A stretch of 64,000 nt of DNA from Mesorhizobium sp. WSM4904 (GTDB lineage Bacteria > Pseudomonadota > Alphaproteobacteria > Rhizobiales > Rhizobiaceae). Position 1 is the stretch's first letter. Every line of letters begins with the position of its first letter. The notes under the pieces were generated by a model. The model did no database searches, had not been told where the DNA came from, and saw only the letters and a list, made by a program, of their open reading frames with translations. The DNA lies in NCBI RefSeq assembly GCF_029674545.1, contig NZ_CP121354.1, positions 3,295,001-3,359,000 on the forward strand, read 5' to 3'. Both the position numbers and the translations under genes were made by a program. This document shows, in pieces, positions 19,084-35,948 of the stretch.

Positions 19084-20289
<1,206 letters not shown>

Positions 20290-21093
20290 TTATGCGGCTT
20301 TCCCTTTGGCGGTCCCTTGATGCGCCGCCTTGGTGCGGGCCTGCAGGTCGCGCAATGTCTTCAGCTCGAGTTCCGCCGGCGCCGGCGTCTCGTCAAGGGC
20401 CTCCGCGAACTTGACCGTCCAGCCACAGGTCGCCTGCACCTCTTCGCGCGTGACGCCGGGATGCAGCGACACGACGGTGAATTCCTTGGTCACCGGGTCA
20501 GGCTTCCAGATGGCGAGATCGGTGATCAAAAGCGTCGGGCCGGCGGTGTCGATGCCGAGGCGCTTGCGATGGTCGCCGCCCTCGCCATGGCCGAAGGAGG
20601 TGAAGAAGTCGATCTTCTCGACCATGCCGCGCTTCGACTGCGCCATGGTGATGTAGACCTCTCTCGACGAGGTGGCGATCTCCGGCGCGCCGCCGCCGCC
20701 GGGCAGCCGCGTCTTCGGGTGCCCATAATCGCCGATGACGGTGGTGTTGATGTTGCCGAACTTGTCGAGCTGGGCGGCGCCGAGAAAGCCGATCGAGATG
20801 CGCCCGCCCTGCAGCCAGTAGCGGAACATCTCCGGCACTGCGACGGTGGTGACGGCCGTGTCGCACAATTCGCCGTCGCCGATCGACAGCGGCAGCACGT
20901 CGGGCGCCGTGCCGATGGTGCCGCTCTCATAGATCAGCGTGATGTCGGGCGCATGCGTCAGCCGCGCGACGTTGCAGGCGGCCGACGGCGCGCCGATGCC
21001 GACGAAGCAGACATCGTCGTTCTTCAGTGCGCGGCTGGCGGCGATCGTCATCATCTCGTTAGGGGTGAAGCCCAGGTTTGGCGTGTCGTTCAT
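20290..21093 (-). CDS. pcaJ: 3-oxoadipate CoA-transferase subunit B
   Basis: A 267-residue subunit of succinyl-CoA:3-oxoadipate CoA-transferase. The CoA-transferase active-site region is THAPDITLIYESGTIG, with the probable catalytic Glu at about 56. I start at ATG 21093, which overlaps the pcaI stop as ATGA. The gene lies between pcaI and pcaF in one minus-strand operon. Confidence 0.92.
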   Translation of the reverse strand: MNDTPNLGFTPNEMMTIAASRALKNDDVCFVGIGAPSAACNVARLTHAPDITLIYESGTIGTAPDVLPLSIGDGELCDTAVTTVAVPEMFRYWLQGGRISIGFLGAAQLDKFGNINTTVIGDYGHPKTRLPGGGGAPEIATSSREVYITMAQSKRGMVEKIDFFTSFGHGEGGDHRKRLGIDTAGPTLLITDLAIWKPDPVTKEFTVVSLHPGVTREEVQATCGWTVKFAEALDETPAPAELELKTLRDLQARTKAAHQGTAKGKAA

Positions 21094-21947
21094 GCGGCTT
21101 TCCTCAGATGCTCGACGCGGCCGGCAAAGTCTTCCGCCGTGCTTTCCAGGACGTTCTTCCGCATCCATGCCTGAAAGCGGTCGCGGTCGGCGGCGATCTC
21201 ATCCCATTCGAGATAGGCGGCGTTGTCGCGTTCGTAATAGCCATGCGTATAGGAGGGATGCGAGCCGCCGGGCACGACCGCGATCGCCGCGATTGTCCAG
21301 CCCGGCAGCACGGTGAGGTTGGGGTGGAGATCGTCGAAATTGTCGACCACTTCCTCGACCGTCACCACGGCGCGTTTTGCGGCAAGAACGGCCTCCTTCT
21401 GGATGCCGATGATGCCTTCGACCAGCACGTTTCCTTTCCGGTCCGCCTTCTGCGCATGGACGAAGGTGACATCGGGCCGGATTGCCGGCACGGCGGCAAG
21501 CACCTCCCCGGTAAAGGGGCAGGTGACGGACCTGATGTTTGGATTGACCGCAGGCAGGCCTGCGCCGCGATAGCCGCGAAACACCGCGCAGGGGAGGCCG
21601 GCCGCGCCCGCCTCATAGGCGTTGGCCATGCCTGCATGGCTGTGCTCTTCAGCCTCGATCGCGCGCGGAAAACCGTTCTCGATGGCGTCGCGAACGCGCC
21701 TGAGCAGGCCAACACCCGGATTGCCGAGATAGGAGAAGACGATCTTCCTTGCCATGCCCATGCCGATCATCTGGTCGTAGATCAGGTCGGGCGTCATGCG
21801 GATCAGTGTCAGATCGCGAAAACCCTGGCGGATCGCCTCATGCGCGGCGGCGGTCGGGATCAGATGGGTGAAGCCCTCGAAGGCGACAGCGTCGCCATCA
21901 TGCAGGTTCTCCGCGACGGCCTCTTTCAGCGGCAGGAACTTGACCAT
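21090..21947 (-). CDS. pcaI: 3-oxoadipate CoA-transferase subunit A
   Basis: A 285-residue CoA-transferase subunit beginning MVKFLPLKEAVAENLHDGD, the usual N-terminus of the family. VAFEGFTHLIPTAAAHEAIR and VTCPFTGEVLAAVPAIRPD are conserved blocks. I start at ATG 21947 behind CCGGAG; a frame extension to 22157 would run into the GntR promoter region and has no domain content. It is the first gene of pcaIJF and is divergent from a GntR regulator gene, though that regulator more probably serves its own downstream cluster. Confidence 0.92.
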   Translation of the reverse strand: MVKFLPLKEAVAENLHDGDAVAFEGFTHLIPTAAAHEAIRQGFRDLTLIRMTPDLIYDQMIGMGMARKIVFSYLGNPGVGLLRRVRDAIENGFPRAIEAEEHSHAGMANAYEAGAAGLPCAVFRGYRGAGLPAVNPNIRSVTCPFTGEVLAAVPAIRPDVTFVHAQKADRKGNVLVEGIIGIQKEAVLAAKRAVVTVEEVVDNFDDLHPNLTVLPGWTIAAIAVVPGGSHPSYTHGYYERDNAAYLEWDEIAADRDRFQAWMRKNVLESTAEDFAGRVEHLRKAA

Positions 21948-22134
21948 CTCCAGGCTCCGGGGATTCAGTTTGCATTGCGAACACAAGTTTTCCATGGGCA
22001 ATGCGGCGCGTCGAGAAATTCTTCTTCGTTTGATTTGGCGAGTTCCCGCCCCTTTTGTGACGCCGGATACCAACAGGCAAGTGAGCGGCGACGGTCGTAA
22101 CAACGGCATTGACTCGCCCGTCCATATCCAATAC

Positions 22135-22165
22135 TGAACAGGATTATACAGGTTCATTGAACAGG
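22135..22165. promoter_or_regulatory. Candidate GntR operator with repeated TGAACAGG
   Basis: TGAACAGG occurs at 22135-22142 and 22158-22165, 23 bp apart, and the second overlaps an 11-bp palindrome GTTCATTGAAC (22152-22162). The sites end eight bases before the GntR start codon and lie on the pcaI side of the divergent region, so binding by the adjacent regulator is likely but untested. Confidence 0.5.
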
Positions 22166-22172
22166 TATCGAT

Positions 22173-22898
22173 ATGGCCCGTCGCGCGATGCAGCTCACCC
22201 CCGGCACGGGCAAGCCCGAGCAGATCGCAACGGTGCTGGAGCGCGAGATCCGCTCCGGCGTGCTCGGCTTCGGCGATCGCCTGCAGAGCGAGAACGAGCT
22301 TGTTCAGCGCTTCTCCGTCAGCCGCAACACGGTTCGCAAAGGATTGGAGGAGCTATCCAATCGCGGGCTGATCACCACCAAGGTCGGTATCGGCTCCTTC
22401 GTCACTTTCGACGGCATGCCGGTCGATGACGCCATCGGCTGGTCGCGCGCGTTGGCCAATGCCGGCGCCAATGCCGAGACCCGGACGTTGCGGCTCGAGG
22501 TCATCGAGGACGCCGAACTCGCGGCGAGACTCGGTGTCGAAAACCCGTCATTCATCGCCGTCGACCGCGTGCGAACCAATGCGGACGACGGACATGCCAT
22601 TTCGATCGAACGCAGTCGTCTGCCTTTATCGCCGGAGCTTGAAGACGTGCCGCTGCGCGGCCTGCGCGAAGGCTCGCTGCACCAGACATTGCGCGGGGCA
22701 GGGCTCGTTCCAGACCATGGCGAGGAGTGGGTCGACATCGAGATGCTGAGCGCCGCGGACGCCGCCATCCTCGACTGCGCGCCGGGCACGCCTTTCCTCA
22801 GGACGCGGCGGCTGACACGCGCCGCCGACGGGCGCGCCATCGAATTCGTCACCAGCCTGCTCAACCCGGCGCATTTCGCGCTGCATCTGGAATTTTGA
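22173..22898 (+). CDS. GntR-family transcriptional regulator, HutC/UTRA type
   Basis: A 241-residue regulator with an N-terminal winged helix (about 15-80; RLQSENELVQRFSVSRNTVRKG is the recognition region) and a C-terminal UTRA ligand-binding domain (about 95-238, ending EFVTSLLNPAHFALHLEF). UTRA regulators usually sense a small pathway metabolite. The next genes follow closely on the same strand, and palindromic repeats stand in its promoter, so it probably represses the whole cluster. It lacks the aminotransferase domain of true MocR. Confidence 0.9.
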   Translation: MARRAMQLTPGTGKPEQIATVLEREIRSGVLGFGDRLQSENELVQRFSVSRNTVRKGLEELSNRGLITTKVGIGSFVTFDGMPVDDAIGWSRALANAGANAETRTLRLEVIEDAELAARLGVENPSFIAVDRVRTNADDGHAISIERSRLPLSPELEDVPLRGLREGSLHQTLRGAGLVPDHGEEWVDIEMLSAADAAILDCAPGTPFLRTRRLTRAADGRAIEFVTSLLNPAHFALHLEF

Positions 22899-22900
22899 GC

Positions 22901-23935
22901 ATGGGCGCGGCCGATATGACCGACCGGGCAATGGGCGCGCTCATCGGCGGCGCGCTGGGCGATGCGCTAGGCATGCCGACGCAGCTTCTGTCGCCCGCCC
23001 GTATCGCCGAGCTCTACGGCCACGTCGAAGATTTCGTCGCGCCCGCCGCCGACCATCCAGTGTCCAAGGGGCTGCCGGAAGGCGCCATCACCGACGACAC
23101 CGAGCAGGCGCTGCTGCTCGGCCGCATCCTGGTCAGTTCCGGCGAGCGCTTCGACCACGGGCGCTGGGTCAACGCGCTGCTCGACTGGGAGCGGGACGTC
23201 AAGGCGCGCGGCAGCTACGACCTGCTTGGCCCATCGACGAAGCGCGCCATCGACGCGATCAATGAGGGCGTGCCGGCGGAAGAGGCGGGACGCGGCGGCG
23301 ACACCAATGGCGCAGCCATGCGCATCGCGCCTGTCGGCATCATGATGCTACCGGAGCCGCTCGACGTGCTGGTCGCCAAGGTCGCCGAAACCTGCCGGGC
23401 CACGCATAACACCTCGATCGCCATTGCCTCCGCGGCCGCCGTCGCTGCCGCGGTCAGTCTCGGTGTATCGGGCGGCGACTGGCGCGCCGCGTCCGGCCAT
23501 GCGGTCGCAGCGGCGAGACTCGGCGCCGCGCTCGGCCATTGGGCGACCGGCGGCGACATCGCTGCGCGCATCCTCTGGGCGCAGGAGCTGGTTCGCGGCA
23601 AAGCCGAGAACGACGCAATCAGGCTGATCGTCGACCTGGTCGGCACCGGCGTCGCCAGTCAGGAATCGGTGCCGGCGGCATTCGCGGTGCTGGAGGTGGC
23701 GCAAGGCGATGCGTGGCAGGCAGCCGTCATTGCCGCCAATCTCGGTGGTGACACCGACACGATCGGCGCTATCGCCGCCGGCATGGCGGGCGCGTGCTCG
23801 GGCTTGTCGGAGTTGCCGCAGGATCGCATCGCAAGGCTCACGGGCATCGACCTCGCGGAAGTCCGCACGCTGGCCAGCGATCTCGTCACAGCGCGGACGG
23901 CAAAGGCCGGCTCGGGCAAGGAGGCTGCAGCATGA
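22901..23935 (+). CDS. ADP-ribosylglycohydrolase (DraG/ARH) fold protein
   Basis: A 344-residue all-alpha hydrolase of the DraG/ARH superfamily, which cleaves N- or O-ribosyl bonds using two Mg2+ ions. Metal motifs are visible: GGALGDALGMPTQ (about 14-26), ITDDTEQALLLG (about 62), GGDTNGAAMRIAPVG (about 132) and NLGGDTDTIGAIAAGMAGA (about 280). No nitrogenase gene is nearby, so it is unlikely to be a dinitrogenase reductase regulator. Its stop overlaps the PfkB kinase start, and a polyamine-type importer follows; removal of a ribosyl group from an imported N-glycoside is a reasonable inference. An in-frame ATG at 22916 is an alternative start. Confidence 0.85.
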   Translation: MGAADMTDRAMGALIGGALGDALGMPTQLLSPARIAELYGHVEDFVAPAADHPVSKGLPEGAITDDTEQALLLGRILVSSGERFDHGRWVNALLDWERDVKARGSYDLLGPSTKRAIDAINEGVPAEEAGRGGDTNGAAMRIAPVGIMMLPEPLDVLVAKVAETCRATHNTSIAIASAAAVAAAVSLGVSGGDWRAASGHAVAAARLGAALGHWATGGDIAARILWAQELVRGKAENDAIRLIVDLVGTGVASQESVPAAFAVLEVAQGDAWQAAVIAANLGGDTDTIGAIAAGMAGACSGLSELPQDRIARLTGIDLAEVRTLASDLVTARTAKAGSGKEAAA

Positions 23936-24906
23936 GTGGACGGCTCGTCCATGTCGGCAGCGCGGTGGTGGATTATGTCTACCGCATCGATGCCTTGCCT
24001 GCGCCCGGCGCGGAAAGGACCGCGTCGAGCTACGCGCGGGTTGCCGGCGGCGGCTTCAACATGATGGTGGCGGCGAGCCGCACTGGCATGAAAGTGGTGT
24101 TCGGCGGGCGGCTCGGCACCGGACCCGACGGCGATTTGCTGCGGTCGGCATTTGCCGCCGAAGGCATCGAGACGCTGACGCCGCCGTCACCACTGATGGA
24201 CAGCGGCAATTGCGTCGCCATGATCAGCAGCGACGCAGAGCGCACCTTCGTCTCATGGCCGGGAGCCGAAAGCGTGCTCACGCCAGACATGATGATGCCT
24301 GTCCAAATCACCCCGGGCGATTGGATTTTCACCTCCGGCTACACGCTGAGCTATCCCGGCAGCCGCGATGCGCTCGCTGACTGGATCGAGGCGCTGCCGG
24401 CGGACAGTCCATTGGTCTTCGACCCGACGCCGGTGATCGCGGAGATTCCGCGGCCGATCCTGGACAGGGTGTTGGCGTGCACCACCTGGCTGAGCTGCAA
24501 CGCGGACGAGGCCGCCGAAATCGCCGGCGCGGGCGACGCGCAAACCGTCGCCATCCGCTTGCTCGCGCAGCATTGCCCCAAGGCTCAAGGCGTGGTCATC
24601 CGCGCCGGCGCGCGCGGCTGCCTGGTGCGGCTGGCGGAAGGCGGCACGCGTGCGATCCCCGGCTTCGCGGTCAACGCCATCGACACCAATGGTGCCGGCG
24701 ACACGCATATCGGAGCCTTCGTCAGCGCATTGTCGCGCAGCCTGTCGGCTTACGAAGCGGCCGGCTACGCGAACGCCGCCGCGGCCCTTTCCGTCACGCG
24801 TCATGGCGGCTCGTCAGCGCCGACGGACACGGAAATCCGGGAATTCCTCGCCCTTCACGATCGCCCGGTGACCGTGCGTGGCGAGGAGCAAGAGGCCACA
24901 CCTTAA
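23932..24906 (+). CDS. PfkB-family carbohydrate kinase
   Basis: A 324-residue ribokinase-like kinase. The N-terminal glycine motif appears as YARVAGGGFNMMVAASRTG (about 36-54) and the C-terminal PfkB signature as DTNGAGDTHIGAFV (about 250-263) with catalytic Asp in GAGD. It overlaps the ADP-ribosylglycohydrolase gene by 4 bp, suggesting it phosphorylates the sugar released by that enzyme. Sugar or nucleoside specificity cannot be read from sequence. Confidence 0.9.
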   Translation: MSGRLVHVGSAVVDYVYRIDALPAPGAERTASSYARVAGGGFNMMVAASRTGMKVVFGGRLGTGPDGDLLRSAFAAEGIETLTPPSPLMDSGNCVAMISSDAERTFVSWPGAESVLTPDMMMPVQITPGDWIFTSGYTLSYPGSRDALADWIEALPADSPLVFDPTPVIAEIPRPILDRVLACTTWLSCNADEAAEIAGAGDAQTVAIRLLAQHCPKAQGVVIRAGARGCLVRLAEGGTRAIPGFAVNAIDTNGAGDTHIGAFVSALSRSLSAYEAAGYANAAAALSVTRHGGSSAPTDTEIREFLALHDRPVTVRGEEQEATP

Positions 24907-24909
24907 CAA

Positions 24910-24924
24910 GCCCGCAAAGCGGGC
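24910..24924. other. Hairpin between kinase and binding-protein genes
   Basis: GCCCGC (24910-24915) pairs with GCGGGC (24919-24924) around an AAA loop, three bases after the kinase stop and before the binding-protein ribosome site. No T-run follows, so partial attenuation or mRNA 5'-end protection is more likely than full termination. Confidence 0.45.
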
Positions 24925-24945
24925 AAACAATGAGAGGAAAACAAC

Positions 24946-26010
24946 ATGCGCATGCCCAGACTGACTGCTTTTCTGACGGCGGCCGCCGTCTTGGTTTCCG
25001 CATTCACGCTGGCCGCCCAGGCCGCCGAAGAAGTGCACGTGTTGAACTGGAAAGGCTACGGCACCGACGAGCCGTGGGCGGTCGCCAATTTCGAGAAGGC
25101 AACCGGCTTCAAGGTGGTCAACGACTTCTTCAACTCCGAGCAGGAGATGCTGACGAAGCTGAGGACCAATCCAGGGCTCTACGACGTCGTCATGATCAAC
25201 GCTGCCTTCAACGATCAGGCGATGGCCGGCAAGCTGATCCAACCGATCGACACATCGAAGCTCTCCAACTACGCCGACATCGCCAAGGACAAGGCCGGCT
25301 CGCCGATGCTGAACCACGACGGCAAGGTCTATGGCGTGCCGTGGGTCTGGGGCCTGACCGCGCTCGCGATCAACGAAAAATCCTTCGACAAGCCGCCGAC
25401 GAGCATCACCGAAATGTGGGATCCGGCGCATAAGGGCCGCGTCGTCATCCGCGACGACGCGGTCGAGGCGGTGCAGTTCGGCGCCATTGCATCGGGACAG
25501 AACATCAACGACATCAAGGACATGGAGGCAGTCAAGGCGAAGCTCACCTCGCTGATGCCGCAGATCAAGACCTTCTGGAGCTCGGAGAACGACTGGAACC
25601 AGATGGTCGCCTCCAACCAGATCGACATCGGCACCTATTGGAGCGGCTCGGCCGACCGCGCCAAGACGCATTTCAAGCTGCCGGTCTCGCTGGTCATTCC
25701 GCAGGAAGGCGCCGTCGCCTGGCTCGATGCCTTCTCAATTCCCGCCGGCTCGAAGAACGTCGCCGGCGCCGAAGCCTTCATCAACTACATGATCGACCCG
25801 AAATTCTATGTCGAATGGGTTACCAAGGTCGGCGCGCCGGTCTCGGCCAACACCAAGGCGGTCGAGGCTCTCCCTGAGGACGCCTTCAACCGCAAGGTCA
25901 TGGGCAGCCCCGAGGTCGCCAAGCGCATCCAGTTCCAGGCGCCGGTCACCGATGAGCAGCGCGAGAAATACCTGGCGCTCTGGCAGGAGCTGAAGGTCAA
26001 CGTGAAATAG
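24946..26010 (+). CDS. ABC transporter substrate-binding protein, spermidine/putrescine (PotD) type
   Basis: A 354-residue periplasmic binding protein with an N-terminal signal peptide (FLTAAAVLVSAFTLAAQA, cleavage near 26). The mature start VHVLNWKGYGTDEPWAVANF matches the PotD/PotF family pattern of an aromatic-rich first strand. WVWGLTALAIN (about 137) is the usual hinge block. The family binds polyamines and other cationic or amino compounds, so the ligand is likely nitrogen-containing; it need not be a polyamine given the sugar-active neighbours. Confidence 0.88.
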   Translation: MRMPRLTAFLTAAAVLVSAFTLAAQAAEEVHVLNWKGYGTDEPWAVANFEKATGFKVVNDFFNSEQEMLTKLRTNPGLYDVVMINAAFNDQAMAGKLIQPIDTSKLSNYADIAKDKAGSPMLNHDGKVYGVPWVWGLTALAINEKSFDKPPTSITEMWDPAHKGRVVIRDDAVEAVQFGAIASGQNINDIKDMEAVKAKLTSLMPQIKTFWSSENDWNQMVASNQIDIGTYWSGSADRAKTHFKLPVSLVIPQEGAVAWLDAFSIPAGSKNVAGAEAFINYMIDPKFYVEWVTKVGAPVSANTKAVEALPEDAFNRKVMGSPEVAKRIQFQAPVTDEQREKYLALWQELKVNVK

Positions 26011-26033
26011 TTGGCTCGGGGAGGAGAGGCATC

Positions 26034-26903
26034 ATGGCCGAGCAGCTCGCGACCGGTCCGCGCCGCGGACTGAAGCCCGCCCTGCCGCTTCTCCTTCCTG
26101 CCTATCTGTGGCTGACGGTGGCGATCTTCCTGCCGCTGTCGGCCATGGTCTTCTTCTCCTTCATGACCGACCTGCCGCTGGCAGGGAAGGATTGGGCCTT
26201 CACGCTCGGCAACTATGCCGCCTTCTTCTCGCAAAGCCTCTACTCGACACTGCTGTTCGCCTCCTTGCGGCTCGGGCTCGAGGTCACGCTGTGGTGCATC
26301 GTCATCGGCTATCCGGCGGCCTATGTGCTGGCGAAGGTGCTGAAAGGGCGCAGCCGCGAGGCGATCTTCCTGCTCGTCATCCTGCCTTTCTGGTCGAACG
26401 GGCTGGTGCGCATCTTCTCCTGGGCGATGGTGCTGCGCGAGGGCGGCATCCTCGATACGGCGCTCAACGCCGTGCTGCCGTTCAAGATCAACATCGACCT
26501 GATGTATTCCTATCCGGCCGTCATCATCGGCCTCGTGCACTCCTACGTGCCCTACATGGTGCTGACCTGTTATCTCACGCTGCAGGCGATCGACGACTCG
26601 CTGATCGAGGCCGGGCGCTCGCTCGGCGCCTCGCGGCTGCAGGTGCTCAAGCGGGTTATCATCCCGCTGTCGATGCCCGGCCTTATCGCCGGCGCGGCAC
26701 TGATCTTCGTGCCGGTCGTCGGCTCCTTCATGGAGCCGCGCATCCTCGGCGGCCGCACCGGCACTTTCTACGGCACCGTCATAGAGGATCAGTTTGTCGC
26801 CGTCTTCAACTGGCCGCTGGGGGCGGCGCTTTCCTTCATTCTGCTCGCCGTGGTGCTGATCATTCTGGCGCTCGCGGCGCCGGTGCTGCGGAGGGCCGGC
26901 TGA
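26034..26903 (+). CDS. ABC transporter permease, PotB type
   Basis: A 289-residue inner-membrane permease with about six helices. The ATPase-contact EAA loop is recognisable as LIEAGRSLGASRLQVLKRVIIP (about 192-213, given here only in part as EAGRSLGAS). It works with the following PotC-like permease, whose ATG overlaps its stop by one base, and with the binding protein 23 bp upstream. Confidence 0.9.
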   Translation: MAEQLATGPRRGLKPALPLLLPAYLWLTVAIFLPLSAMVFFSFMTDLPLAGKDWAFTLGNYAAFFSQSLYSTLLFASLRLGLEVTLWCIVIGYPAAYVLAKVLKGRSREAIFLLVILPFWSNGLVRIFSWAMVLREGGILDTALNAVLPFKINIDLMYSYPAVIIGLVHSYVPYMVLTCYLTLQAIDDSLIEAGRSLGASRLQVLKRVIIPLSMPGLIAGAALIFVPVVGSFMEPRILGGRTGTFYGTVIEDQFVAVFNWPLGAALSFILLAVVLIILALAAPVLRRAG

Positions 26904-27691
26904 TGGCGACGACACGCATCCTCGAATGGCTCGGCCGCTTCTATATCGTCCTGCTGCTCGCCTTCCTCTATCTGCCGATCATCATCATGGCGCTGATGTC
27001 GTTCAACGTCTCGCCCTTCTACCAATTGCCGTTCGAGTGGACGACGGACTGGTATCAATCGCTCTGGCAGAACGACCAGTTGATCGCGGCGACCTGGAAT
27101 AGCATCGAGATCGCTGTCATCACGACGATCATCTCAACGGTGCTGGGCTCGATGGCGTCGCTGGCGCTCTACCGCTATGAATTCCGCGGCAAGAAGCTGC
27201 TGCAGGCGCTGCTGTTTCCGCCGATCGCCATTCCGTGGCTGATCACCGGCACGGCGATGCTGATCTTCTTTTTCGGCATCGGCATCGGCCGCGGTCTGGT
27301 CGCCATCCTGCTCGGGCATGTCGCGCTGGCGCTGCCTTACGTGATCGTCGTCGTGTCCGCCCGGCTGCAGACCTTCGCGCCGGAGCTGGAGGAGGCGGCT
27401 CGCTCGCTCGGCGCCAACCAGTGGCAGGTCACCAACCGCGTGACGCTGCCCTGGATCATGCCCGGCGTGATCGCCGGCGGGCTGTTCGCCTTTGCCGTCT
27501 CCTTCGACCAGTTCGTCGTTTCGTACTTCCTGTCGACGCCCGGCCAGACGACGCTGCCGGTCGAAATCTACGCCGCGATCCGCAAGGGATTCACGCCCGA
27601 GATCAACGCGGTGTCGACGATCATCATCGTGGTGTCGATGGCGCTGATGCTGCTCACGGCGCGCTTCTTCAAATTCGGCGGAGAGAAATAG
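26903..27691 (+). CDS. ABC transporter permease, PotC type
   Basis: A 262-residue permease with about six hydrophobic segments, starting FYIVLLLAFLYLPIIIMALM as in PotC-like subunits. The EAA motif is EEAARSLGANQWQVTNRVTL near 162. The start codon overlaps the upstream permease stop (TGATG), and the ATPase gene begins immediately after its own stop, so the four transporter genes are one unit. Confidence 0.9.
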   Translation: MATTRILEWLGRFYIVLLLAFLYLPIIIMALMSFNVSPFYQLPFEWTTDWYQSLWQNDQLIAATWNSIEIAVITTIISTVLGSMASLALYRYEFRGKKLLQALLFPPIAIPWLITGTAMLIFFFGIGIGRGLVAILLGHVALALPYVIVVVSARLQTFAPELEEAARSLGANQWQVTNRVTLPWIMPGVIAGGLFAFAVSFDQFVVSYFLSTPGQTTLPVEIYAAIRKGFTPEINAVSTIIIVVSMALMLLTARFFKFGGEK

Positions 27692-28759
27692 ATGGCAGGC
27701 GTCCAGGTAGCGAACGTCTTCCGCAGCTTTGGCGCGCACAAGGCGCTGGACGACGTCTCGATCGACTTTCCCGACGGCGGCTTCTACGCGCTGCTTGGGC
27801 CTTCGGGCAGCGGCAAGACTACACTGCTGCGCCAGATCGCCGGCTTCGACTTTCCCGACGCGGGCCGTATCGCCATCGGCGGTGAAAGCGTGGAGCGCGT
27901 GCCGGTCGAGAAGCGGCGCATCGGTATGGTGTTCCAGAACTACGCGCTGTTTCCGAACATGAGCGTCGCCGACAATGTCGCCTTCGGGCTTTCGGTGCGC
28001 GGCGAGCCGAAAGCGACGATCGCCACGGAAGTGCAGCGCGCGCTCGACCTCGTACAGCTCGGCAAGCTCGGCGGGCGCAAGCCTCATCAGCTCTCCGGCG
28101 GCCAGCGCCAGCGCGTGGCGTTGGCGCGCGCCATCGTCACCAAGCCGCGCGTGCTTCTGCTCGACGAGCCGCTCGGCGCGCTCGACAAGGCGCTGCGCGT
28201 CGACATGCAGATCGAGCTGAAGCGCATCCAGCGCGAGATCGGCATCACCACCATCTTCGTCACGCACGATCAGGAGGAGGCGCTGACGATGAGCGACCGC
28301 ATCGGCATATTGCGCGACGGCAGGCTGGTGCAGGAAGGGCCGCCGGAGGAGATCTACGACAGACCGCAAAGCGAGTTCGCCGCGACCTTTCTCGGCGACG
28401 CCAACATCTTTCGCGGTGATGCGACCGGCAACGGCATCCGGCTGCCGGATGGCACGATGATCGTCGCCGCCTCCGGGCCATCGCTGGCGGCCGGCGCCAA
28501 GGCGAGCTGTGCCGTGCGGCCGGAACGCATCCAAATTTCGACCGGTACGACGAGGCCTGACAAAGGCGACGCCAACACGCTCAAGGGGCAAGTCTCGAAA
28601 CGCATCTTCGCCGGCAACAACAGCACCTATTTCGTCGAGCGTGATGGGCAGACGCTGAAAGTGATCGTCCAGAACACCGGCGCCGAGCGGCTGGCCGAAG
28701 GACAGCCGGTGGTGCTCAGCTGGTCGCCGGAAAGCACGGTGCTGATCGCGGCAAGCTGA
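27692..28759 (+). CDS. ABC transporter ATP-binding protein, PotA type
   Basis: A 355-residue ATPase: Walker A GPSGSGKTT (about 36-44), Q-loop VFQNYALFP, signature LSGGQRQRVALARAI near 135, Walker B VLLLDEPLGALD near 154 and H-loop VTHDQEEA near 190. The last third (about 240-355) is a TOBE-type regulatory domain, as in PotA. It energises the two preceding permeases. The next gene, a dehydrogenase, lies 97 bp downstream. Confidence 0.92.
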   Translation: MAGVQVANVFRSFGAHKALDDVSIDFPDGGFYALLGPSGSGKTTLLRQIAGFDFPDAGRIAIGGESVERVPVEKRRIGMVFQNYALFPNMSVADNVAFGLSVRGEPKATIATEVQRALDLVQLGKLGGRKPHQLSGGQRQRVALARAIVTKPRVLLLDEPLGALDKALRVDMQIELKRIQREIGITTIFVTHDQEEALTMSDRIGILRDGRLVQEGPPEEIYDRPQSEFAATFLGDANIFRGDATGNGIRLPDGTMIVAASGPSLAAGAKASCAVRPERIQISTGTTRPDKGDANTLKGQVSKRIFAGNNSTYFVERDGQTLKVIVQNTGAERLAEGQPVVLSWSPESTVLIAAS

Positions 28760-28856
28760 CGGTTGCCGCTGCCGATCCCTGATGGGAAATGATGGTGTGG
28801 GCCTTGGCTGATGTGCAGGCCATGGCGTTATATCCAGTCCTCGACGGGAGGAATGG

Positions 28857-29945
28857 ATGGCGAGCACGGGTTTCGAACCGGATGTGAAGGTTCGTACCAG
28901 AGAATACCGGATCGGCTGCATCGGGGCCGGCATGATCATGGCCGAATGCCATCTCGCCGCTTACCATGAGGCTGGCTTTCCGGTTGTCGCACTCGCTTCG
29001 CGCACGCGGGCGAATGCCGAAAAGGTCGCCGCTCGCTGGGACATCGAGACCGTTCACGATACGCCGGAACAGCTCATCGAGGACAGCCACGTCGAGATCG
29101 TCGACCTTGCCTTCCCGCCCGATCAGCAGCCCGCGCTGATCCGCCATGCCCTGCGACAGCCTCACGTCAAGGCAATCCTGGCGCAGAAGCCGCTGGCGCT
29201 GTCGGTGGAGGAGGCGGTCAAGCTGCGCGACGAGGCGGCGGCCTCCGACAAGATACTCTCGGTCAACCAGAACATGCGCTACGACCAGTCGATGCGCGTC
29301 CTGAAGCAGATCATCGACAGCGGGGCGCTGGGCGAGATCGTCTTTGCCGAGATCGACATGCACGCGATCCCGCATTGGCAAACCTTCCTTGCCGATTACG
29401 ATCGGCTGACGCTCGCCAATATGAGCGTGCACCATCTCGACGTGCTGCGCTTTCTATTCGGCGATCCCGATGAGATCACCACACAGGCGCGCAAGGATCC
29501 GCGCACTCGGTTTGAGCATGTCGACGGCATCACCGTTTCCACGCTCAGATTTCCCTCCGGCGTACTCGCCGTGTCGCTGGAGGACGTCTGGTCAGGCCCG
29601 CGTGAGCAAGGTTATCAGGACGACCAGCACATCAACTGGCGCGTCGATGGCGCCAAGGGTGTTGCCAAGGGCACCATCGGCTGGCCAAAGGGCGTCGCAT
29701 CGACGCTGACTTACGCCTCGACCGAGACGACCGGTGGAAAATGGGTCAGCCCAAGCTGGGAGACGATGTGGTTCCCGCATGCATTCATCGGCGTCATGGA
29801 GCAATTGCAATACGCACTGAAGACCGGCACGCCGCCGGCGCTGTCCGTTGCCGACAATGTCAAGACCATGGCGCTGGTCGAGGCCGGCTACCGCTCGATG
29901 GCGGAGGGCCGTACCATCAAGCTCTCCGAAGTCCGCGTCGACTGA
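28857..29945 (+). CDS. Gfo/Idh/MocA-family oxidoreductase
   Basis: A 362-residue NAD(P)-dependent dehydrogenase. The Rossmann motif is IGCIGAGMIMAECHLA (19-34). The family EKP motif appears as ILAQKPLAL near 106, keeping the catalytic Lys but with Gln for Glu. HHLDVLRFLFGDP near 191 is the catalytic-helix block. Members oxidise sugars, inositols or amino-inositols; MocA of rhizopine catabolism is in this family. The gene is preceded by GGGAGGA and followed by a MocC-like TIM-barrel protein, which suggests oxidation and isomerisation of a cyclic polyol or sugar. Confidence 0.88.
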   Translation: MASTGFEPDVKVRTREYRIGCIGAGMIMAECHLAAYHEAGFPVVALASRTRANAEKVAARWDIETVHDTPEQLIEDSHVEIVDLAFPPDQQPALIRHALRQPHVKAILAQKPLALSVEEAVKLRDEAAASDKILSVNQNMRYDQSMRVLKQIIDSGALGEIVFAEIDMHAIPHWQTFLADYDRLTLANMSVHHLDVLRFLFGDPDEITTQARKDPRTRFEHVDGITVSTLRFPSGVLAVSLEDVWSGPREQGYQDDQHINWRVDGAKGVAKGTIGWPKGVASTLTYASTETTGGKWVSPSWETMWFPHAFIGVMEQLQYALKTGTPPALSVADNVKTMALVEAGYRSMAEGRTIKLSEVRVD

Positions 29946-29995
29946 GAAAGCCAAAGGCACGACGGCGGAATCGCTTACCCGGAGGAGTTCACCTC

Positions 29996-30910
29996 ATGAT
30001 GCAGGCAGGTATCTTCACAGGCTATTTTCCCTACGAGGTCGAGGAAGTCGCCAGGCGAATCCGCGCGCTGGGTTTCAATACCGTGCAGCTCGACCTGCAT
30101 TTCAAGGATATCGATCTCTCGGCCGGGCAGATCACCAGGAACAAGGCAAGGACGGTGCGCGACACGTTCCGCGACTACAATCTGCCGGTCTGCTGCGTGT
30201 CCGGCTACACCAACATCATTCATCCGGACAAAGCCGAGCGTGAGAAGCGGCTTGCCTATCTGAAGGAGATCATCCGCAATGCACGTGAATTCGGCAGCCC
30301 TTACGTGATCTCCGAGACCGGCACCTACAACACCGAGTCCGACTGGGTGCATCACCCGAAGAACAAGACCGAGGAAGGCTTCGAGGAATGCCGAAAGGTG
30401 ATCTCGGATCTTGCGCAGACGGCTTACGACCACGGCGCGGTGTTCCTGCTCGAGACCTATGTCAACAACGTCGTCGGTTCGGTCGAGGAGACGGTCAGGA
30501 TGTTCGCGCAGGTGGATCACCCAGGATTAGGCTTGTTGATGGATCCGACCAATTATTTCGAGGCGCACAATATCGACCGCATGGATCAGGTGCTGAACCA
30601 GGTCTTCGACACGCTGACCGACAAGATCAAAATCGCGCATGCCAAGGACGTGAAGCGCTCGGGCAGCGACAAGACGGAAAAGCATGCCGATATCGGCGAC
30701 GCGGATGCGCATGAAGGGCTGACCTTCCGGGGCGTCGGCGAGATCGAATTGCCGGCGCCGGGGCTCGGCGCGCTCAACTACGACCTCTATCTCACGCGGC
30801 TCAGCGAGAAGCACCCGAATATTCCGGTGATCATCGAGCATCTGACGGAAGACGACGTGCCGCGCGCCAAGACATTTCTGGACGGGAAATTCCGCGCCAA
30901 CGGTCTTTGA
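29996..30910 (+). CDS. Sugar phosphate isomerase/epimerase family TIM-barrel protein (MocC-like)
   Basis: A 304-residue xylose-isomerase-like TIM barrel. Probable metal ligands are E153 in FLLETYVNN, D183 in LLMDPTNYF, H215 in KIAHAKDVK and E281 in PVIIEHLTE. GGAGGAG lies eight bases before the ATG; a second ATG follows immediately. Neighbours are the Gfo/Idh/MocA dehydrogenase and a membrane oxygenase, an order like mocA-mocC plus mocD-mocE in rhizopine-catabolising rhizobia. Alternatives are inosose dehydratase or hydroxypyruvate isomerase relatives. Confidence 0.82.
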   Translation: MMQAGIFTGYFPYEVEEVARRIRALGFNTVQLDLHFKDIDLSAGQITRNKARTVRDTFRDYNLPVCCVSGYTNIIHPDKAEREKRLAYLKEIIRNAREFGSPYVISETGTYNTESDWVHHPKNKTEEGFEECRKVISDLAQTAYDHGAVFLLETYVNNVVGSVEETVRMFAQVDHPGLGLLMDPTNYFEAHNIDRMDQVLNQVFDTLTDKIKIAHAKDVKRSGSDKTEKHADIGDADAHEGLTFRGVGEIELPAPGLGALNYDLYLTRLSEKHPNIPVIIEHLTEDDVPRAKTFLDGKFRANGL

Positions 30911-30931
30911 GAGCCGGCGGGGGAAGCGACG

Positions 30932-32029
30932 ATGACGACGGCCGCCGGGACGAAGCGCGACTACAGCCTTGTCGGCGAAAGCACCCGGCTTGCGATCGAG
31001 ACCGGGCTCGCATCGGCCGAGTGGTACCACACCGACGTGCCGCGCAAGACTATGAAGGAGCTGATGCAGCGCTCCGACGGGCCGGCGATCCGCGACACCG
31101 TCATCTGGATTGCAGCGATCCTGGGCTCGGCCGCCGGCATCGTCTGGTTCTGGGGCACGTGGTGGGTGGTGCCGTTCCTGTTCGTCTACGGCGTGCTCTA
31201 TGGCTCTTCGAGCGACTCGCGCTGGCACGAATGCGGCCACGGCACCGCGTTCCGCACGCGCTGGATGAACGACGTCGTCTACCAGATCGCCTCGTTCATG
31301 CTGATGCGCAATCCGGTGCAGTGGCGCTGGAGCCATGCCCGCCACCACACCGACACCATCATTGTCGGCCGCGACGCCGAGATCGCCGTGATGCGACCGC
31401 CGGACCTCTTGAAGGCGGCGCTTGCCTTCACCGGCGTCCTCGACTTCCGCTATTCGCTGCCGACACTGGTGCGCCAGGCCCTCGGCAAGCTGTCGGATGA
31501 CGAGACGAGCTACATCCCGGAGATGGAGCGGCACAAGGCGGTGGTCGCGGCGCGCTGGCACATGGTCGTGTATGCCGCGACGATCTTTGTCGCGATCGCG
31601 CTTGGATCATGGATACCGATGGTGCTGATCGGCCTGCCGCGCCTCTACGGCACTTGGCACATGGTGCTGACCGGCCTGCTGCAGCATATCGGCCTTGCCG
31701 ACAATGTCATCGACCACCGGCTCAACTCGCGCACCGTCTATATGAACCCGCTCAGCCGGTTCATCTACTGGAACATGAACTACCATGTGGAGCATCACAT
31801 GTTCCCGATGGTGCCCTACCACGCGCTGCCGAAGCTGCACGAGCTGATCAAGCACGATTTGCCGGTGCCGAACCCGTCGATGTGGCACGCCTATCGCGAG
31901 GTGTGGCCGGTGCTGCTCAGACAGCTGAAATACGAGGACTACTACCTCAAGCGCGAGCTGCCGCCGACGGCCAAGCCCTATCGTGGCGAATTTCACGAGC
32001 TCGATATGACGGCAGCGGCTGCCGAATAG
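30932..32029 (+). CDS. Membrane di-iron oxygenase of the fatty acid desaturase superfamily (MocD-like)
   Basis: A 365-residue integral membrane di-iron enzyme. The three histidine boxes are HECGHG (about 99), HARHH (about 135) and HVEHH (about 285). Hydrophobic segments at about 56-92 and 190-225 give the membrane hairpins. The superfamily includes desaturases, alkane hydroxylases and MocD, the demethylating oxygenase of rhizopine catabolism. A Rieske ferredoxin gene directly follows and is the likely electron donor; no dedicated reductase gene is present. Its position in a sugar/polyol cluster argues for hydroxylation or O/N-demethylation of a small substrate rather than lipid desaturation. 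Confidence 0.85.
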   Translation: MTTAAGTKRDYSLVGESTRLAIETGLASAEWYHTDVPRKTMKELMQRSDGPAIRDTVIWIAAILGSAAGIVWFWGTWWVVPFLFVYGVLYGSSSDSRWHECGHGTAFRTRWMNDVVYQIASFMLMRNPVQWRWSHARHHTDTIIVGRDAEIAVMRPPDLLKAALAFTGVLDFRYSLPTLVRQALGKLSDDETSYIPEMERHKAVVAARWHMVVYAATIFVAIALGSWIPMVLIGLPRLYGTWHMVLTGLLQHIGLADNVIDHRLNSRTVYMNPLSRFIYWNMNYHVEHHMFPMVPYHALPKLHELIKHDLPVPNPSMWHAYREVWPVLLRQLKYEDYYLKRELPPTAKPYRGEFHELDMTAAAAE

Positions 32030-32057
32030 GCGTCGCGCAGCAATCCGGAGAAAGACG

Positions 32058-32372
32058 ATGGCGGAGTGGGTCGAAGCATGCGCGGTGGGCGACGTGGACG
32101 AGGAGGACGTGATCCGCTTCGACCACGGCGGCCGCACCTTCGCGATCTACCGCTCGCCCGACGACGAGTTCTTCGCCACCGACGGCTTTTGCACGCATGA
32201 AAAAGCGCATCTGGCCGATGGGCTGGTGATGGACGACATCATCGAATGCCCCAAGCACAATGGACGCTTCAACTACAAGACCGGTCAGGCCAAGGGCGCG
32301 CCGGTATGCGTCAACCTCAAGATCTATCCGGTCAAAGTCGAGGCCGGCAAGGTGATGATCGAGATCGGCTGA
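32058..32372 (+). CDS. Rieske-type [2Fe-2S] ferredoxin, MocE-like
   Basis: A 104-residue soluble Rieske ferredoxin. The cluster ligands are C45 and H47 in FCTHEKAHL and C64 and H67 in CPKHNGRF, the exact CxH/CxxH pattern. It probably passes electrons to the membrane oxygenase encoded 28 bp upstream, as MocE does for MocD. GGAGAAAG precedes the ATG. Confidence 0.92.
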   Translation: MAEWVEACAVGDVDEEDVIRFDHGGRTFAIYRSPDDEFFATDGFCTHEKAHLADGLVMDDIIECPKHNGRFNYKTGQAKGAPVCVNLKIYPVKVEAGKVMIEIG

Positions 32373-32405
32373 GAGCCGTTAGCCAAGTAAAACAGGAATA
32401 TACCG

Positions 32406-33209
32406 ATGAGCCGAAAGAGACCGACCGTCGCCGACCTGCGCGCCATGAAGGGCAAGCGGCAGCTGACCATGCTGCGCGTGCTGACGCTGGACGAAGCGGA
32501 GGCCGCCGAACGGGCCGGCATCGACATCGTCTCGGTACCGCCGGAGCTGGTGCTCAATCCGCAATATCGCGATGCCGCACCCAGCCTTTTCACCATGCCG
32601 GGCGAAAATTTCTTCGAGATCGGCACGGCGGACGATTTCCTGCGCTGGTCGTTCCGGCTCTACAAGGCCGGCGCGGATGCCGTCTATTGCAGCGCCGGCT
32701 ACGCCACGATCAAGCGCATGGCCGACGATGCGATTCCCGTCATCGGCCATGTCGGGCTCATTCCTTCCCGCGCGACCTGGACCGGCGGCTTCAAGGCGGT
32801 CGGCAAGACCGCCGATACGGCCATGCAAGTGTTCGAGGCGGTGAAGCAGCTGGAGGCGGCCGGCGCGATCGGGGCCGAGATCGAGGTGGTGCCGGTCGAG
32901 GTGGCGAAGGCGATCTCCGAGCGCACCTCGCTGATCATGCTGTCGATGGGCGCGGGAACCGGCTGCGATGCCCAATACCTGTTTGCGGAAGACATTCTCG
33001 GCACCAATCGCGGCCACATGCCGCGCCACTCGAAGGTCTATCGCAACTTCGCCGCCGAGTACGACCGGCTGCAGGCCGAGCGCATCGCGGCGTTTTCCGA
33101 ATACGTCGCCGACGTCAACAGCGGCGCCTATCCGGAAGACAGGCACATCGTGCATATGGATCCGGACGAACTCACCCTCTTCATGAAGAGGATGGACGGA
33201 AAGCTCTGA
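32406..33209 (+). CDS. PanB-like (ketopantoate hydroxymethyltransferase superfamily) protein with altered active site
   Basis: A 267-residue TIM-barrel protein aligning with PanB over VIGHVGLIP (112-120), WTGGFKAVGKT (125-135) and EVVPVEVAKAI (160-170, keeping the catalytic-type Glu), and MLSMGAGTGCDAQ. In my hand alignment the three E. coli PanB metal ligands are not kept: GDS (Asp45) becomes VPPE, ADLPF (Asp84) becomes MPGEN, and KLEGG (Glu114) becomes YCSAG. It is therefore unlikely to make ketopantoate; a retro-aldol, lyase or different transferase reaction is possible. It ends the same-strand cluster and converges on the ammonia-lyase-like gene. Confidence 0.8.
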   Translation: MSRKRPTVADLRAMKGKRQLTMLRVLTLDEAEAAERAGIDIVSVPPELVLNPQYRDAAPSLFTMPGENFFEIGTADDFLRWSFRLYKAGADAVYCSAGYATIKRMADDAIPVIGHVGLIPSRATWTGGFKAVGKTADTAMQVFEAVKQLEAAGAIGAEIEVVPVEVAKAISERTSLIMLSMGAGTGCDAQYLFAEDILGTNRGHMPRHSKVYRNFAAEYDRLQAERIAAFSEYVADVNSGAYPEDRHIVHMDPDELTLFMKRMDGKL

Positions 33210-33229
33210 AAGAACAGCTTAATCCAGCA

Positions 33230-34711
33230 TTAGGCCCGCCAGGTCCCGTCGGCGAGCGCGGCGTGGAGCGTGTCGGCATTGGGGCCGAGCGGCCGGTCTT
33301 CCTTGAGGGTCGGCACATGGGCGCGTACAGCCGCATGGATAACGCCGGTAGCGGGCGCCAGCGTGAGGCCTTCGCGCAGGTCGACCGCCTGCGCCGCCGC
33401 CATCAGCTCGAAGGCGATCAGGCGCCGCCACAGCACGATCATCTCGGCGCATTTGGCGACGGCAAGCGGCGTCTGCGTGGCGTGGTCTTCGACGCCCTCG
33501 GACACGGGCAGGAAGTCGAGCATCACCGGATTGGCCTTGTGGCGGATGCCAGCCAGTATCGCCGTTACCGTCTTCTGCAGCGGCACGAAGCCGGCAGAGG
33601 CGCCGCCTACCGGCGACAGATATTTCGGCAGACCGTGGCGGGTTGCGCCGGTGAGCTGGATGAAGCGGGCGGCGGACGCTGCCGCGCATTGGGCGATCGC
33701 CAGCCCCAGCGTCTCGAAGGCCAGCGCCAGCGATGCGGTGTGGAAATTGCCGGTCGACAGCACGAGCGAGTCTTCGACCAGCACCAGCGGGTTGTCGGCG
33801 GCGGCGTTGAGCTCGATTTCGACCGCGAGCCTGGCGTGATCGATCGCCTGGATCAGCGCGCCGTGGATCGAGGGCATGCAGCGGATCGACAGCGGATCCT
33901 GGATGGTCGTCGGCGCCGGCGCCTCATCGCGCGCCAGCAGATCGCGCAACGCCTTCGCCGCAACCTGCTGGCAGGCAGCAGGCCGCGCCAGGTGCAGGCG
34001 GGGATCGAGGATGGTGCGGTTGGCGCCCAGCGCCTCCATGGTGAGCGCACCGGCCTGTTGTTGCTGTTCCAACGCCGAGAGCGCATCGGTGAGCGCCAGC
34101 GCGCCGGCGCCGGTGGAGACGGCGGATGCGTTGATCAGCGACAGGCCGTCCTTGGGTGCCAGGCTGACTGGGGCAAGGCGTGCCATCATCAGCGCCTTTG
34201 CCGAAGGCATGCGCCTGCTCTGATAGTCGGCATCGCCTTCGCCGATCAGCGTGTGGGCGATCGCCGTCATCAGCACCAGGTCGCCGGCGCCGATGGAGCC
34301 GAGCGAAGGCATCACCGGATGGACGCCGGCGTTGAGCACATCGACGAGCGCGGTGAAGACATGCGGCGAGAGACCGGAGCCGCCTGCCGCGAGCATGGCG
34401 ATGCGGGCGAACATCGCCGCGCGTACGAGCTGGGTTGGCAATGCGTTTCCCACCGCGGCACCGCGTCCGTCGAGAAGCTGGCGCTGGAACGCGCCGGCAT
34501 CGCCTTCGACCGTCGTGCCGAGATTGGCGCCTAAGCCGGTGTTCAGCCCGTAGATCTGCTGACCGCCGGCGGCGGCCTCGTCGAGCACCTTGCGCGCCTT
34601 GCCCAGCCGTTCGATGACGGCGGGCGTGACCTCGACCTTTCCTGCATTGCGCGCGACGGCGGCCACGTCCTCGATGCTGACCCCGGCGCCGGTGAGAACG
34701 AGGGGGGTCAT
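33230..34711 (-). CDS. HAL/PAL-family ammonia-lyase-like protein with incomplete MIO motif
   Basis: A 493-residue protein of the histidine/phenylalanine ammonia-lyase fold. The catalytic Tyr is Y54 in IYGLNTGLG, and QDPLSIRCMPSIHGA matches the QDxYSxRCxPQ block with Leu for Tyr. The prosthetic MIO group normally forms from Ala-Ser-Gly in GSVGASGDL; here the stretch reads GSIGAGDL (138-145), lacking the Ser codon, while the rest of the region aligns without other gaps. It may thus be inactive as an MIO lyase or act differently. It overlaps the upstream cyclodeaminase-like gene by 4 bp, so both probably act on one amino-acid-like substrate. Confidence 0.85.
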   Translation of the reverse strand: MTPLVLTGAGVSIEDVAAVARNAGKVEVTPAVIERLGKARKVLDEAAAGGQQIYGLNTGLGANLGTTVEGDAGAFQRQLLDGRGAAVGNALPTQLVRAAMFARIAMLAAGGSGLSPHVFTALVDVLNAGVHPVMPSLGSIGAGDLVLMTAIAHTLIGEGDADYQSRRMPSAKALMMARLAPVSLAPKDGLSLINASAVSTGAGALALTDALSALEQQQQAGALTMEALGANRTILDPRLHLARPAACQQVAAKALRDLLARDEAPAPTTIQDPLSIRCMPSIHGALIQAIDHARLAVEIELNAAADNPLVLVEDSLVLSTGNFHTASLALAFETLGLAIAQCAAASAARFIQLTGATRHGLPKYLSPVGGASAGFVPLQKTVTAILAGIRHKANPVMLDFLPVSEGVEDHATQTPLAVAKCAEMIVLWRRLIAFELMAAAQAVDLREGLTLAPATGVIHAAVRAHVPTLKEDRPLGPNADTLHAALADGTWRA

Positions 34712-35709
34712 GCGAAGCGCAGCCTCTGGCCGATGCCCTTGTCCGCGGCCTTGGCCAGCATCGCCTTGCCGAGCGCGATGTCCGATAGCGACAGGCCGCG
34801 GTGCCAAAATAGGATCGTCTCGCCGTCGCTTTGGCGTCCGGCTTTGAGGCCAGCGGCGATCTGGCCGAGCTCGGCATGCAGCGTCGCCTCGCTCAGCCGC
34901 CCCGTCTCGACATGGGCGCGCAGCGAGCCGAACTTGCCGCCTTTGCACTGACCCCAGTCGTCGACGACGATCTTTTGCATGATCTCGGTGAGCGACAGCT
35001 CGACCGCGCTCATCGTGCCGTAGGGCACGACCAGCGCGCCCCGCTTGATCCATTCGGTCTTGAGCAATGGTTGCGGCTCCGGCAGCCGCGAGGCTTCTAC
35101 GACGATGTCCGCGCCTTCGACGCAGCTCTTCCAGTCGGCCACGGCCATGACCGGCTTGCCGAGGTCGGCGGCAAGCTTGGCGGCGAAAGCGTCGCGGCTT
35201 TCCGGCCGGCGCGAATGGACGCGGATCTCGTCGAAATCGAAGAGGTGATCCAGCAGGCGCACATTCCAGTAGGCGGTGCCGCGCGCGCCGATATGGCCGA
35301 GCACCTTGGATGACTTCTTCGCCAGATGCTTGGCGCCGATGGCGGTGACCGCGCCGGTGCGCATGTCGGTGATGACGGTGGCGTCGAGGATGGCGCGCGG
35401 CGTGCCGGTGCGCGGGTCGAAGAGGTTGAGGATGCCGAATTCGGACGGCAGACCGTGCAGGTAGTTGTCGACATAGTCGCCGACGACCTTCACGCCGGCC
35501 GCCTCGAGCGGCGCCACATAGCCGCGCAGCACGTTGAAATGGCCGTGGAAGGACGGGTCGGGCTCGAGATGGACGCGCGGCTCGATCACCGTCTGGCCCT
35601 TGCCTTGCGCGACCAGCCCGGCTTCGACGGCGCCGATGATCTCGGCGTCGCTCATCGCCAGCGCTTCGATATCGAGAGCGTTGAGGTAGTCGATATAGAT
35701 GGGCTTCAT
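34708..35709 (-). CDS. Ornithine cyclodeaminase / mu-crystallin family protein
   Basis: A 333-residue NAD(P)-dependent protein of the OCD/mu-crystallin fold. VHLEPDPSFHGHFNVLRGYV (about 46) is the substrate-side region, and the Rossmann part includes KVLGHIGARGTAYWNV near 137, where the glycine motif is GHIGARG. Members include ornithine cyclodeaminase, ketimine reductase and alanine dehydrogenase; which applies is unclear. GAGGGG precedes the ATG. Its stop overlaps the ammonia-lyase-like gene (ATGA), making a two-gene operon. Confidence 0.85.
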   Translation of the reverse strand: MKPIYIDYLNALDIEALAMSDAEIIGAVEAGLVAQGKGQTVIEPRVHLEPDPSFHGHFNVLRGYVAPLEAAGVKVVGDYVDNYLHGLPSEFGILNLFDPRTGTPRAILDATVITDMRTGAVTAIGAKHLAKKSSKVLGHIGARGTAYWNVRLLDHLFDFDEIRVHSRRPESRDAFAAKLAADLGKPVMAVADWKSCVEGADIVVEASRLPEPQPLLKTEWIKRGALVVPYGTMSAVELSLTEIMQKIVVDDWGQCKGGKFGSLRAHVETGRLSEATLHAELGQIAAGLKAGRQSDGETILFWHRGLSLSDIALGKAMLAKAADKGIGQRLRFA

Positions 35710-35948
35710 GCATTCCCCTCGGCCGGCCCGCGCTCATCCATAACAGGCGGAGGGCCGGCAAGGAAGTTTGTTGGATAAGTTCTGGACTGAACCGGATTAA
35801 TGCTGTTCAACCAGCGCGTCATGACAAGCATTCCCGACAACGAGGCCGTGTCCCGGCCCGTGCCGATGGCGGCGCGCCAGGCACGGCGCTGAGGTCTCGG
35901 GGCATTTGATGGCGAAATGACGTTCATGCGGGTGGAGGTCAGACTTCC

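Follow-up and report, generated by a model that had tools for sequence, protein, structure and literature searches.

Do twelve closely packed genes of Mesorhizobium sp. WSM4904, which join riboside-type enzymes and an importer to relatives of rhizopine-catabolism (moc) genes, serve one pathway or two? They occupy positions 22173-33209 on the plus strand of the window, by which we mean the whole stretch of 64,000 nucleotides that was analysed, and the host genome is a single contig of 6.65 Mb. A preliminary description of the locus had proposed a single pathway for one glycoside, and this we found unsupported. Our analysis suggests that the locus combines two catabolic modules with separable functions and that the compact form seen here is probably one transcript, a reading that we consider reasonably probable. 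It rests on the separate occurrence of the parts: module A (regulator, hydrolase, kinase and importer) alone, the MocA-MocC pair without the other parts, MocD-MocE-PanB without window-type MocA and MocC, and module B (the Moc-like genes) without module A upstream. Both modules are best read as belonging to known kinds, although the function of one of these is uncharacterised, and one striking operon becomes two testable ones. The twelve genes are the following:

22173..22898, plus strand: GntR/UTRA regulator, module A (Pfam UTRA 66.2 bits, GntR 55.3 bits; 28% identity to Escherichia coli YegW)
22916..23935 (start chosen), plus strand: ADP-ribosylglycohydrolase (ARH)-fold hydrolase, YegU-like, module A (PF03747 ADP_ribosyl_GH 201.5 bits; 33% to YegU)
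23932..24906, plus strand: PfkB-family sugar kinase with ribokinases as its closest relatives, module A (PF00294 145.8 bits; 32% to YegV)
24946..26010, plus strand: PotD-like solute-binding protein, module A (SBP_bac_8 119.3 bits; PotD equivalog 161.8 bits, cut-off 582)
26034..26903, plus strand: PotB-like permease, module A (BPD_transp_1 60.4 bits)
26903..27691, plus strand: PotC-like permease, module A (from reading frame and position)
27692..28759, plus strand: PotA-like ATPase, module A (Walker A and LSGGQ motifs)
28857..29945, plus strand: Gfo/Idh/MocA dehydrogenase, core of module B (B1; PF01408 63.9 bits; 67-75% to genes of loci L076, L077, L079 and L080)
29996..30910, plus strand: PF01261 TIM barrel ('MocC', AP_endonuc_2), core of module B (B1; 99.7 bits; 70-83% to genes of the same four loci)
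30932..32029, plus strand: MocD-type membrane di-iron oxygenase, module B (B2; FA_desaturase 120.2 bits; three His boxes)
32058..32372, plus strand: MocE-family Rieske ferredoxin, module B (B2; Rieske in Pfam; NCBIfam TIGR02377 185.1 bits, cut-off 136.15)
32406..33209, plus strand: PanB-like protein of a divergent family, module B (B2; PF02548 Pantoate_transf 139.9 bits; TIGR00222 101.7 bits, cut-off 207.55)

The coordinates of the preliminary description are correct, as is the single-strand run with short or overlapping joins from the UTRA-type GntR regulator to the PanB-like protein, although it had counted eleven genes where there are 12. It had also called the ARH and PfkB genes fused by overlap; the overlap of 4 bp is real, but the two proteins are separate. 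The intergenic gaps are 17 bp (GntR-ARH), -4 (ARH-PfkB), 39 (PfkB-PotD), 23 (PotD-PotB), -1 (PotB-PotC), 0 (PotC-PotA), 97 (PotA-MocA), 50 (MocA-MocC), 21 (MocC-MocD), 28 (MocD-MocE) and 33 (MocE-PanB). In the largest of these, the 97 bp between PotA and MocA, a consensus scan found no promoter- or terminator-like match, and Rfam gave none over 20000-36000. Ten of the 12 proteins (all but PotC and PotA) were scanned with Pfam, and all ten exceeded the curated cut-offs for the families named previously. The moc-type oxygenase part was likewise supported by the FA_desaturase, Rieske and TIGR02377 matches, and the motifs read were TDDTE and GGDTDT in ARH, HECGH/HARHH/HVEHH in MocD and CxH...CxxH in MocE. 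A sequence search gave no solved relative of MocD, and there is no ferredoxin reductase within the 12-gene cluster.

Each part of the cluster was found elsewhere without the others. When the 12 proteins were compared by tblastn with 20 stretches, ARH-PfkB-PotDBCA appeared without Moc genes in L047, with the GntR gene, and in L049-L051, without it. Module A stands alone on plasmids of Mesorhizobium sp. B1-1-8, Rhizobium sp. TH2 and Paracoccus albus (L096, L097 and L098), where the window MocA, MocC, MocD, MocE and PanB had no match in the 17-19 kb of each locus; no GntR gene is annotated next to the module in P. albus. The window TIM barrel has relatives in 171 plasmid records, 28 of them at 80-90% identity. 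In all four records whose annotation was inspected (L076, L077, L079 and L080), the relative (70-83%) lies between a Gfo/Idh/MocA gene before it (67-75%) and a DUF4432 relative after it (60-71%), LacI and sugar ATP-binding cassette (ABC) genes lie around these three, and the MocD, MocE, PanB and ARH of the window have no match across 29 kb. Such clusters, from Sinorhizobium, Pararhizobium, Pseudosulfitobacter and Variovorax, share the MocA-TIM order with the window, and their DUF4432 gene resembles that of the Mesorhizobium long form described below, whereas they differ from the window in carrying LacI, sugar ABC, short-chain dehydrogenase/reductase (SDR) and coenzyme A-type genes.

MocD, MocE and the PanB-like protein also occur without window-type MocA and MocC. 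On pRL11 of R. johnstonii 3841 they form, with a reductase, a separate unit adjoining LacI and TIM genes. The host genome itself holds a second MocD-MocE-reductase-PanB-like set (C1:573248-576752, L055), 69, 82 and 64% identical to the window MocD, MocE and PanB, whose neighbours are an inositol-type ABC transporter, a dehydrogenase and a LacI gene; L056 and L058, judged by eye, likewise have MocD-E(-F)-PanB-like genes adjoining inositol-type genes. According to the accessible part of the source, FixV-like LacI regulators adjoin rhizobial mocDEF and an inositol derivative has been suggested (PMC3538637). The window set shares the MocD and MocE families with that system, and the L055 arrangement is similar to it in its gene neighbourhood, but the window set has no reductase, LacI gene or inositol-type transporter. 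Lastly, within Mesorhizobium a short MocA-MocC-MocD form without ARH-Pot in the upstream stretch is present in three genomes (G586, G602 and G635).

The relatives of module A differ mainly in how the cell would import the substrate. The order is GntR-ARH-cytosine permease-kinase in Paraburkholderia, nucleoside permease-ARH-PfkB with a convergent GntR gene in Pantoea, and yegT-yegU-yegV with a convergent yegW in E. coli K-12. Because the importers vary around one hydrolase-kinase core, and two of them are annotated for nucleosides or cytosine, our best guess for the substrate of module A is a nucleoside-like riboside, and these importer swaps support what the preliminary description had supposed for this part. 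The motifs TDDT and GxDTDTI are invariant in the seven aligned ARH rows, and the closest solved relative of the kinase is a ribokinase (4x8f, 99.3 bits). ARH enzymes are generally known to prefer alpha-ribosides. In module A the ABC importer would take in a nucleoside-like riboside, the ARH metal site would hydrolyse the ribosidic bond and the ribokinase-like PfkB protein would phosphorylate the released pentose. The E. coli yegTUV-yegW (ggaR) locus is alike in its adjacent ARH, PfkB and GntR/UTRA homologs (the identities are listed above) and in the ARH metal-site motifs, but its importer is YegT in place of the Pot-type ABC genes, and no Moc genes are annotated within 20 kb of it. As far as the accessible part of PMC10819704 goes, YegT is predicted to be an NHS-family symporter, the YegW effector is reported to be ADP-glucose and the functions of yegTUV are called unknown. 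The riboside module is widespread, from E. coli to rhizobia, and functionally uncharacterised.

For module B, MocD and MocE, together with a reductase from elsewhere, may oxygenate a methyl group, probably an O-methyl, on a compound resembling a cyclitol or a sugar; MocA would oxidise a ring hydroxyl, the TIM barrel would isomerise or eliminate, and the PanB-like protein could handle the freed one-carbon unit. For both modules we infer the substrates, the reaction steps and, in the compact form, co-transcription. Homarine was considered as a candidate substrate and dropped.

The PanB-like protein belongs to PF02548 but falls below the cut-off of the PanB equivalog TIGR00222. Like E. coli PanB (ketopantoate hydroxymethyltransferase), it retains H136 and E181, as do its six aligned relatives (7/7), whereas D84, K112 and E114 are changed in all seven and D45 in six (L056 keeps the Asp). 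The window protein departs at all four of these positions, with Pro, Gly and Tyr at Asp45, Asp84 and Lys112; we take these E. coli PanB residues to have catalytic roles. A scan with a PanB-like sequence alone gave 194 relatives, of which the best 80 were used; since the ranking was by similarity to a PanB-like protein that is itself a neighbour of MocE, the sample is biased that way. Of its 66 proteobacterial loci, 54 had MocD no farther than 6 kb away, 59 had MocE and 64 had at least one of the two, and the LacI, IbpA and TIM genes of the inositol-type loci were matched in 30, 14 and 23 of those best 80. The pairing looks looser in a sample of the class drawn regardless of the PanB-like protein, where by hand count 10 of 25 PanB-like places (at least 143 bits) had a MocD gene no more than 3 kb away on their contig, the G042 place being possibly cut by contig ends. 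MocD matches of 53-58% without a PanB-like match (E 1e-20) occurred in G443, G448, G254, G375 and G424; MocD is also paired with the PanB-like protein in genomes of about 1.4 Mb with 30-32% guanine plus cytosine (GC), which resemble SAR11 in these two respects alone.

A role of the PanB-like protein in handling a one-carbon product would fit these data. Tentatively, and with more doubt than confidence, we propose that it could be an undescribed one-carbon enzyme of oxidative demethylation, capturing formaldehyde or a hydroxymethyl group made by MocD-type (sometimes PhyH-type) oxygenases, perhaps onto tetrahydrofolate, which would make mocDEF a four-gene unit in much of Alphaproteobacteria. A link between the PanB-like protein and mocDEF was not found in the literature searched, and the accessible main text of PMC3538637 has no mention of panB. 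The frequent pairing of this non-canonical protein with MocD/MocE offers a clue to the function of a family that carries a pantothenate-enzyme annotation, and it suggests that mocDEF has a partner so far missing. PhyH as its second partner was borne out in part only: among 20 genomes searched, PhyH lay within 0.4 kb of a MocD-less PanB-like gene in three (G317, G387 and G358) and was not beside it in eleven (G558, G481, G272, G322, G425, G508, G560, G220, G281, G314 and G042). Separately, in small low-GC alphaproteobacterial genomes (L060:7815-12627, L059 and L081), MocD and the PanB-like gene adjoin a glutamine-synthetase-like gene (by Pfam in L060, by eye elsewhere), with a Rieske oxygenase also alongside in L060 and L081, and the PanB-like gene is solitary (about 5974-6800), with no common neighbours by eye, in L190, L194, L197, L199 and L212, from Verrucomicrobia and a Pirellulaceae genome.

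How the two modules lie to each other varies within the genus. Among 119 Mesorhizobium genomes, 97 had an ARH match, and 96 ARH places were compared with 104 MocD places (at least 83% identity). The distance from ARH to MocD was 6.98-7.10 kb, as in the window, at 19 of the 96 places, 8.8-9.1 kb at seven, 12.6-15.8 kb at five, 17-30 kb at 48 and 58 kb at one; in 11 MocD was on another contig or strand, and five had no listed ortholog. The order from GntR to MocD was conserved in all eight further compact loci, which indicates that the cluster is more than chance. In the 8.8-9.1 kb forms inspected (L045, L046 and L075) the gap is filled by aconitase-X genes. The long forms inspected have an opposite-strand LacI gene, mostly a CUT1 transporter, MocA, MocC, mostly a CUT2 transporter, DUF4432 and MocD-MocE-PanB; the exception is L066 (G660; 13.4 kb), which is of the aconitase-X type, contains an insertion and lacks the LacI gene. 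Of the genomes with the short module B, G602 has five genes that all look whole, while in G586 (L213:13060-17128) the MocA call is split, the PanB match is in two pieces and a MocE match is absent. Because the long and the short B occur together in G586, G602 and G658, the two forms are probably non-redundant. As side observations, the aconitase-X pair beside MocA in L045 (6219-7882) scores 380 of 700 bits with a cis-3-hydroxyproline dehydratase model, L069 and L216 have such a pair upstream of their LacI gene, L066 (8154-12501) has, by eye, TonB-receptor-like and binding-protein-like genes between aconitase-X and MocA, and the short copy of G586, which holds a long copy (L214) too, may be decaying.

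We rejected a simple deletion, fresh in this strain, as the origin of the compact form, as its MocA-MocC is a different allele. G580, a listed member of the same species, has the long form; nucleotide identity between it and the window is 94% over Pot, 84% over MocA-MocC and 97% over MocD-PanB. In a tree of MocA plus MocC, all 13 short-form rows form a single clade (100/99), whereas short and long forms are mixed in the Pot tree and in the MocD plus PanB tree, the latter grouping the window with G580 (99/93). Because MocA-MocC thus differs in ancestry from its flanks, by both identity and trees, we read the short MocA-MocC as a separate lineage moved by recombination between shared flanks, that is, a swapped cassette, and the locus as a clear case of such exchange. 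A tie of the short MocA-MocC to the Pot operon was also considered; all 13 short-form loci inspected at first had Pot upstream but had been chosen via ARH, and G586, G602 and G635 break the tie.

Several alternatives had to be weighed. That Pot imports polyamines and lies only by chance between riboside enzymes and Moc genes we think unlikely: PotD and PotF are the closest solved relatives of the binding protein, and the DDAxE and WxD stretches and one tryptophan, which we presume to take part in spermidine binding, are kept in the alignment with PotD, but other positions differ, the equivalog score is far under its cut-off (161.8 vs 582 bits), and the ARH-PfkB-Pot order is conserved in Mesorhizobium, Rhizobium, Paracoccus and one further family of the order. 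There is hardly any case for the ARH protein being a DraG-type enzyme that removes ADP-ribose from proteins, with module A regulatory, as it scores 92.1 bits against a DraG equivalog cut-off of 337.05 and a sugar kinase and importer accompany ARH in six of seven annotated relatives, Enterococcus being the exception, even though DraG and ARH3 are among its solved relatives. Membership of the rhizopine system, described as mocRABCDEF (PMC10107442, in its accessible part), is very improbable. The MocE subfamily match over cut-off, the MocD homology and the Gfo/Idh/MocA and PF01261 members do resemble it, and a binding protein in the long form is weakly like the rhizopine solute-binding protein (67.5 bits, cut-off 420). 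However, the interval 22173-33209 is filled by the 12 genes, with no space left for the MocB binding protein or the MocF reductase, neither of which is in the cluster, and the host genome has no MocR over cut-off (best match E 3.7e-115). MocR loci, standing in as a proxy for the authentic S. meliloti L5-30 moc genes, led us to reject this membership: MocR exceeded its cut-off in 15 of 327 genomes of the order, and in ten of ten such loci (20 kb each) the window MocD, MocE, PanB and MocC had no match, MocA matching weakly (24-26%) in two. The dehydrogenase and TIM barrel beside MocR in L128 are not orthologous to the window MocA and MocC (BLASTP E 0.56 and 0.095).

The single pathway, in which Pot would import a nitrogen-containing glycoside, ARH cleave it, PfkB phosphorylate the sugar and the Moc-like genes demethylate, oxidise and cleave the aglycone, seems quite unlikely to us. 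It draws on the tight packing of the genes, no gap exceeding 97 bp, on a same-strand MocD ortholog 7.0-9.1 kb away at 26 of 96 ARH places, and on the fact that module B as found in the window has no regulator to itself. Against it, each part is found without the others, the short B lacks module A upstream in three genomes, long and short B coexist in three, and 12.6-30 kb separate ARH from MocD at 53 of 96 places, with the opposite-strand LacI gene between them in those inspected, except L066. The preliminary description had looked to conserved co-occurrence as one check, and ARH and MocD are indeed found together in 91 of the 119 Mesorhizobium genomes, but the parts also occur independently, which it had named, together with a lack of any co-regulation, as speaking against its proposal.

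The reading of two separable modules has its own difficulties, and the following weigh against it or against the roles given above. In the genus sample, 91 genomes had both ARH and the MocD ortholog, five ARH only (one of them, G643, 79% complete), ten MocD only and 13 neither, a strong co-distribution (Fisher p 7.9e-8, kinship ignored), and the constant strand and neighbourhood of modules A and B in the genus may reflect a functional tie. In the window, module B has neither a regulator nor an importer of its own, and Pot might serve it. Co-regulation of the parts within the compact form is possible. On an Enterococcus plasmid ARH adjoins a phosphotransferase system (PTS) gene and PfkB is absent, so that its context is not always nucleoside-like. 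For the oxygenase story, MocE was not found in L107, L110 and L213, nor PanB in L109, which weakens it there; L059, L060 and L081 have the PanB-like gene and MocD with no inositol gene recognised by eye; and the queried partners were absent at 14 of 14 PanB-like loci of Verrucomicrobia and Planctomycetes.

Beyond the cluster, histidine-ammonia-lyase-like and ornithine-cyclodeaminase-like genes, named by eye, converge on it from the minus strand (window positions 33219-35709), and the histidine-ammonia-lyase-like neighbour is present also in L045, L046, L065, L066 and L220.

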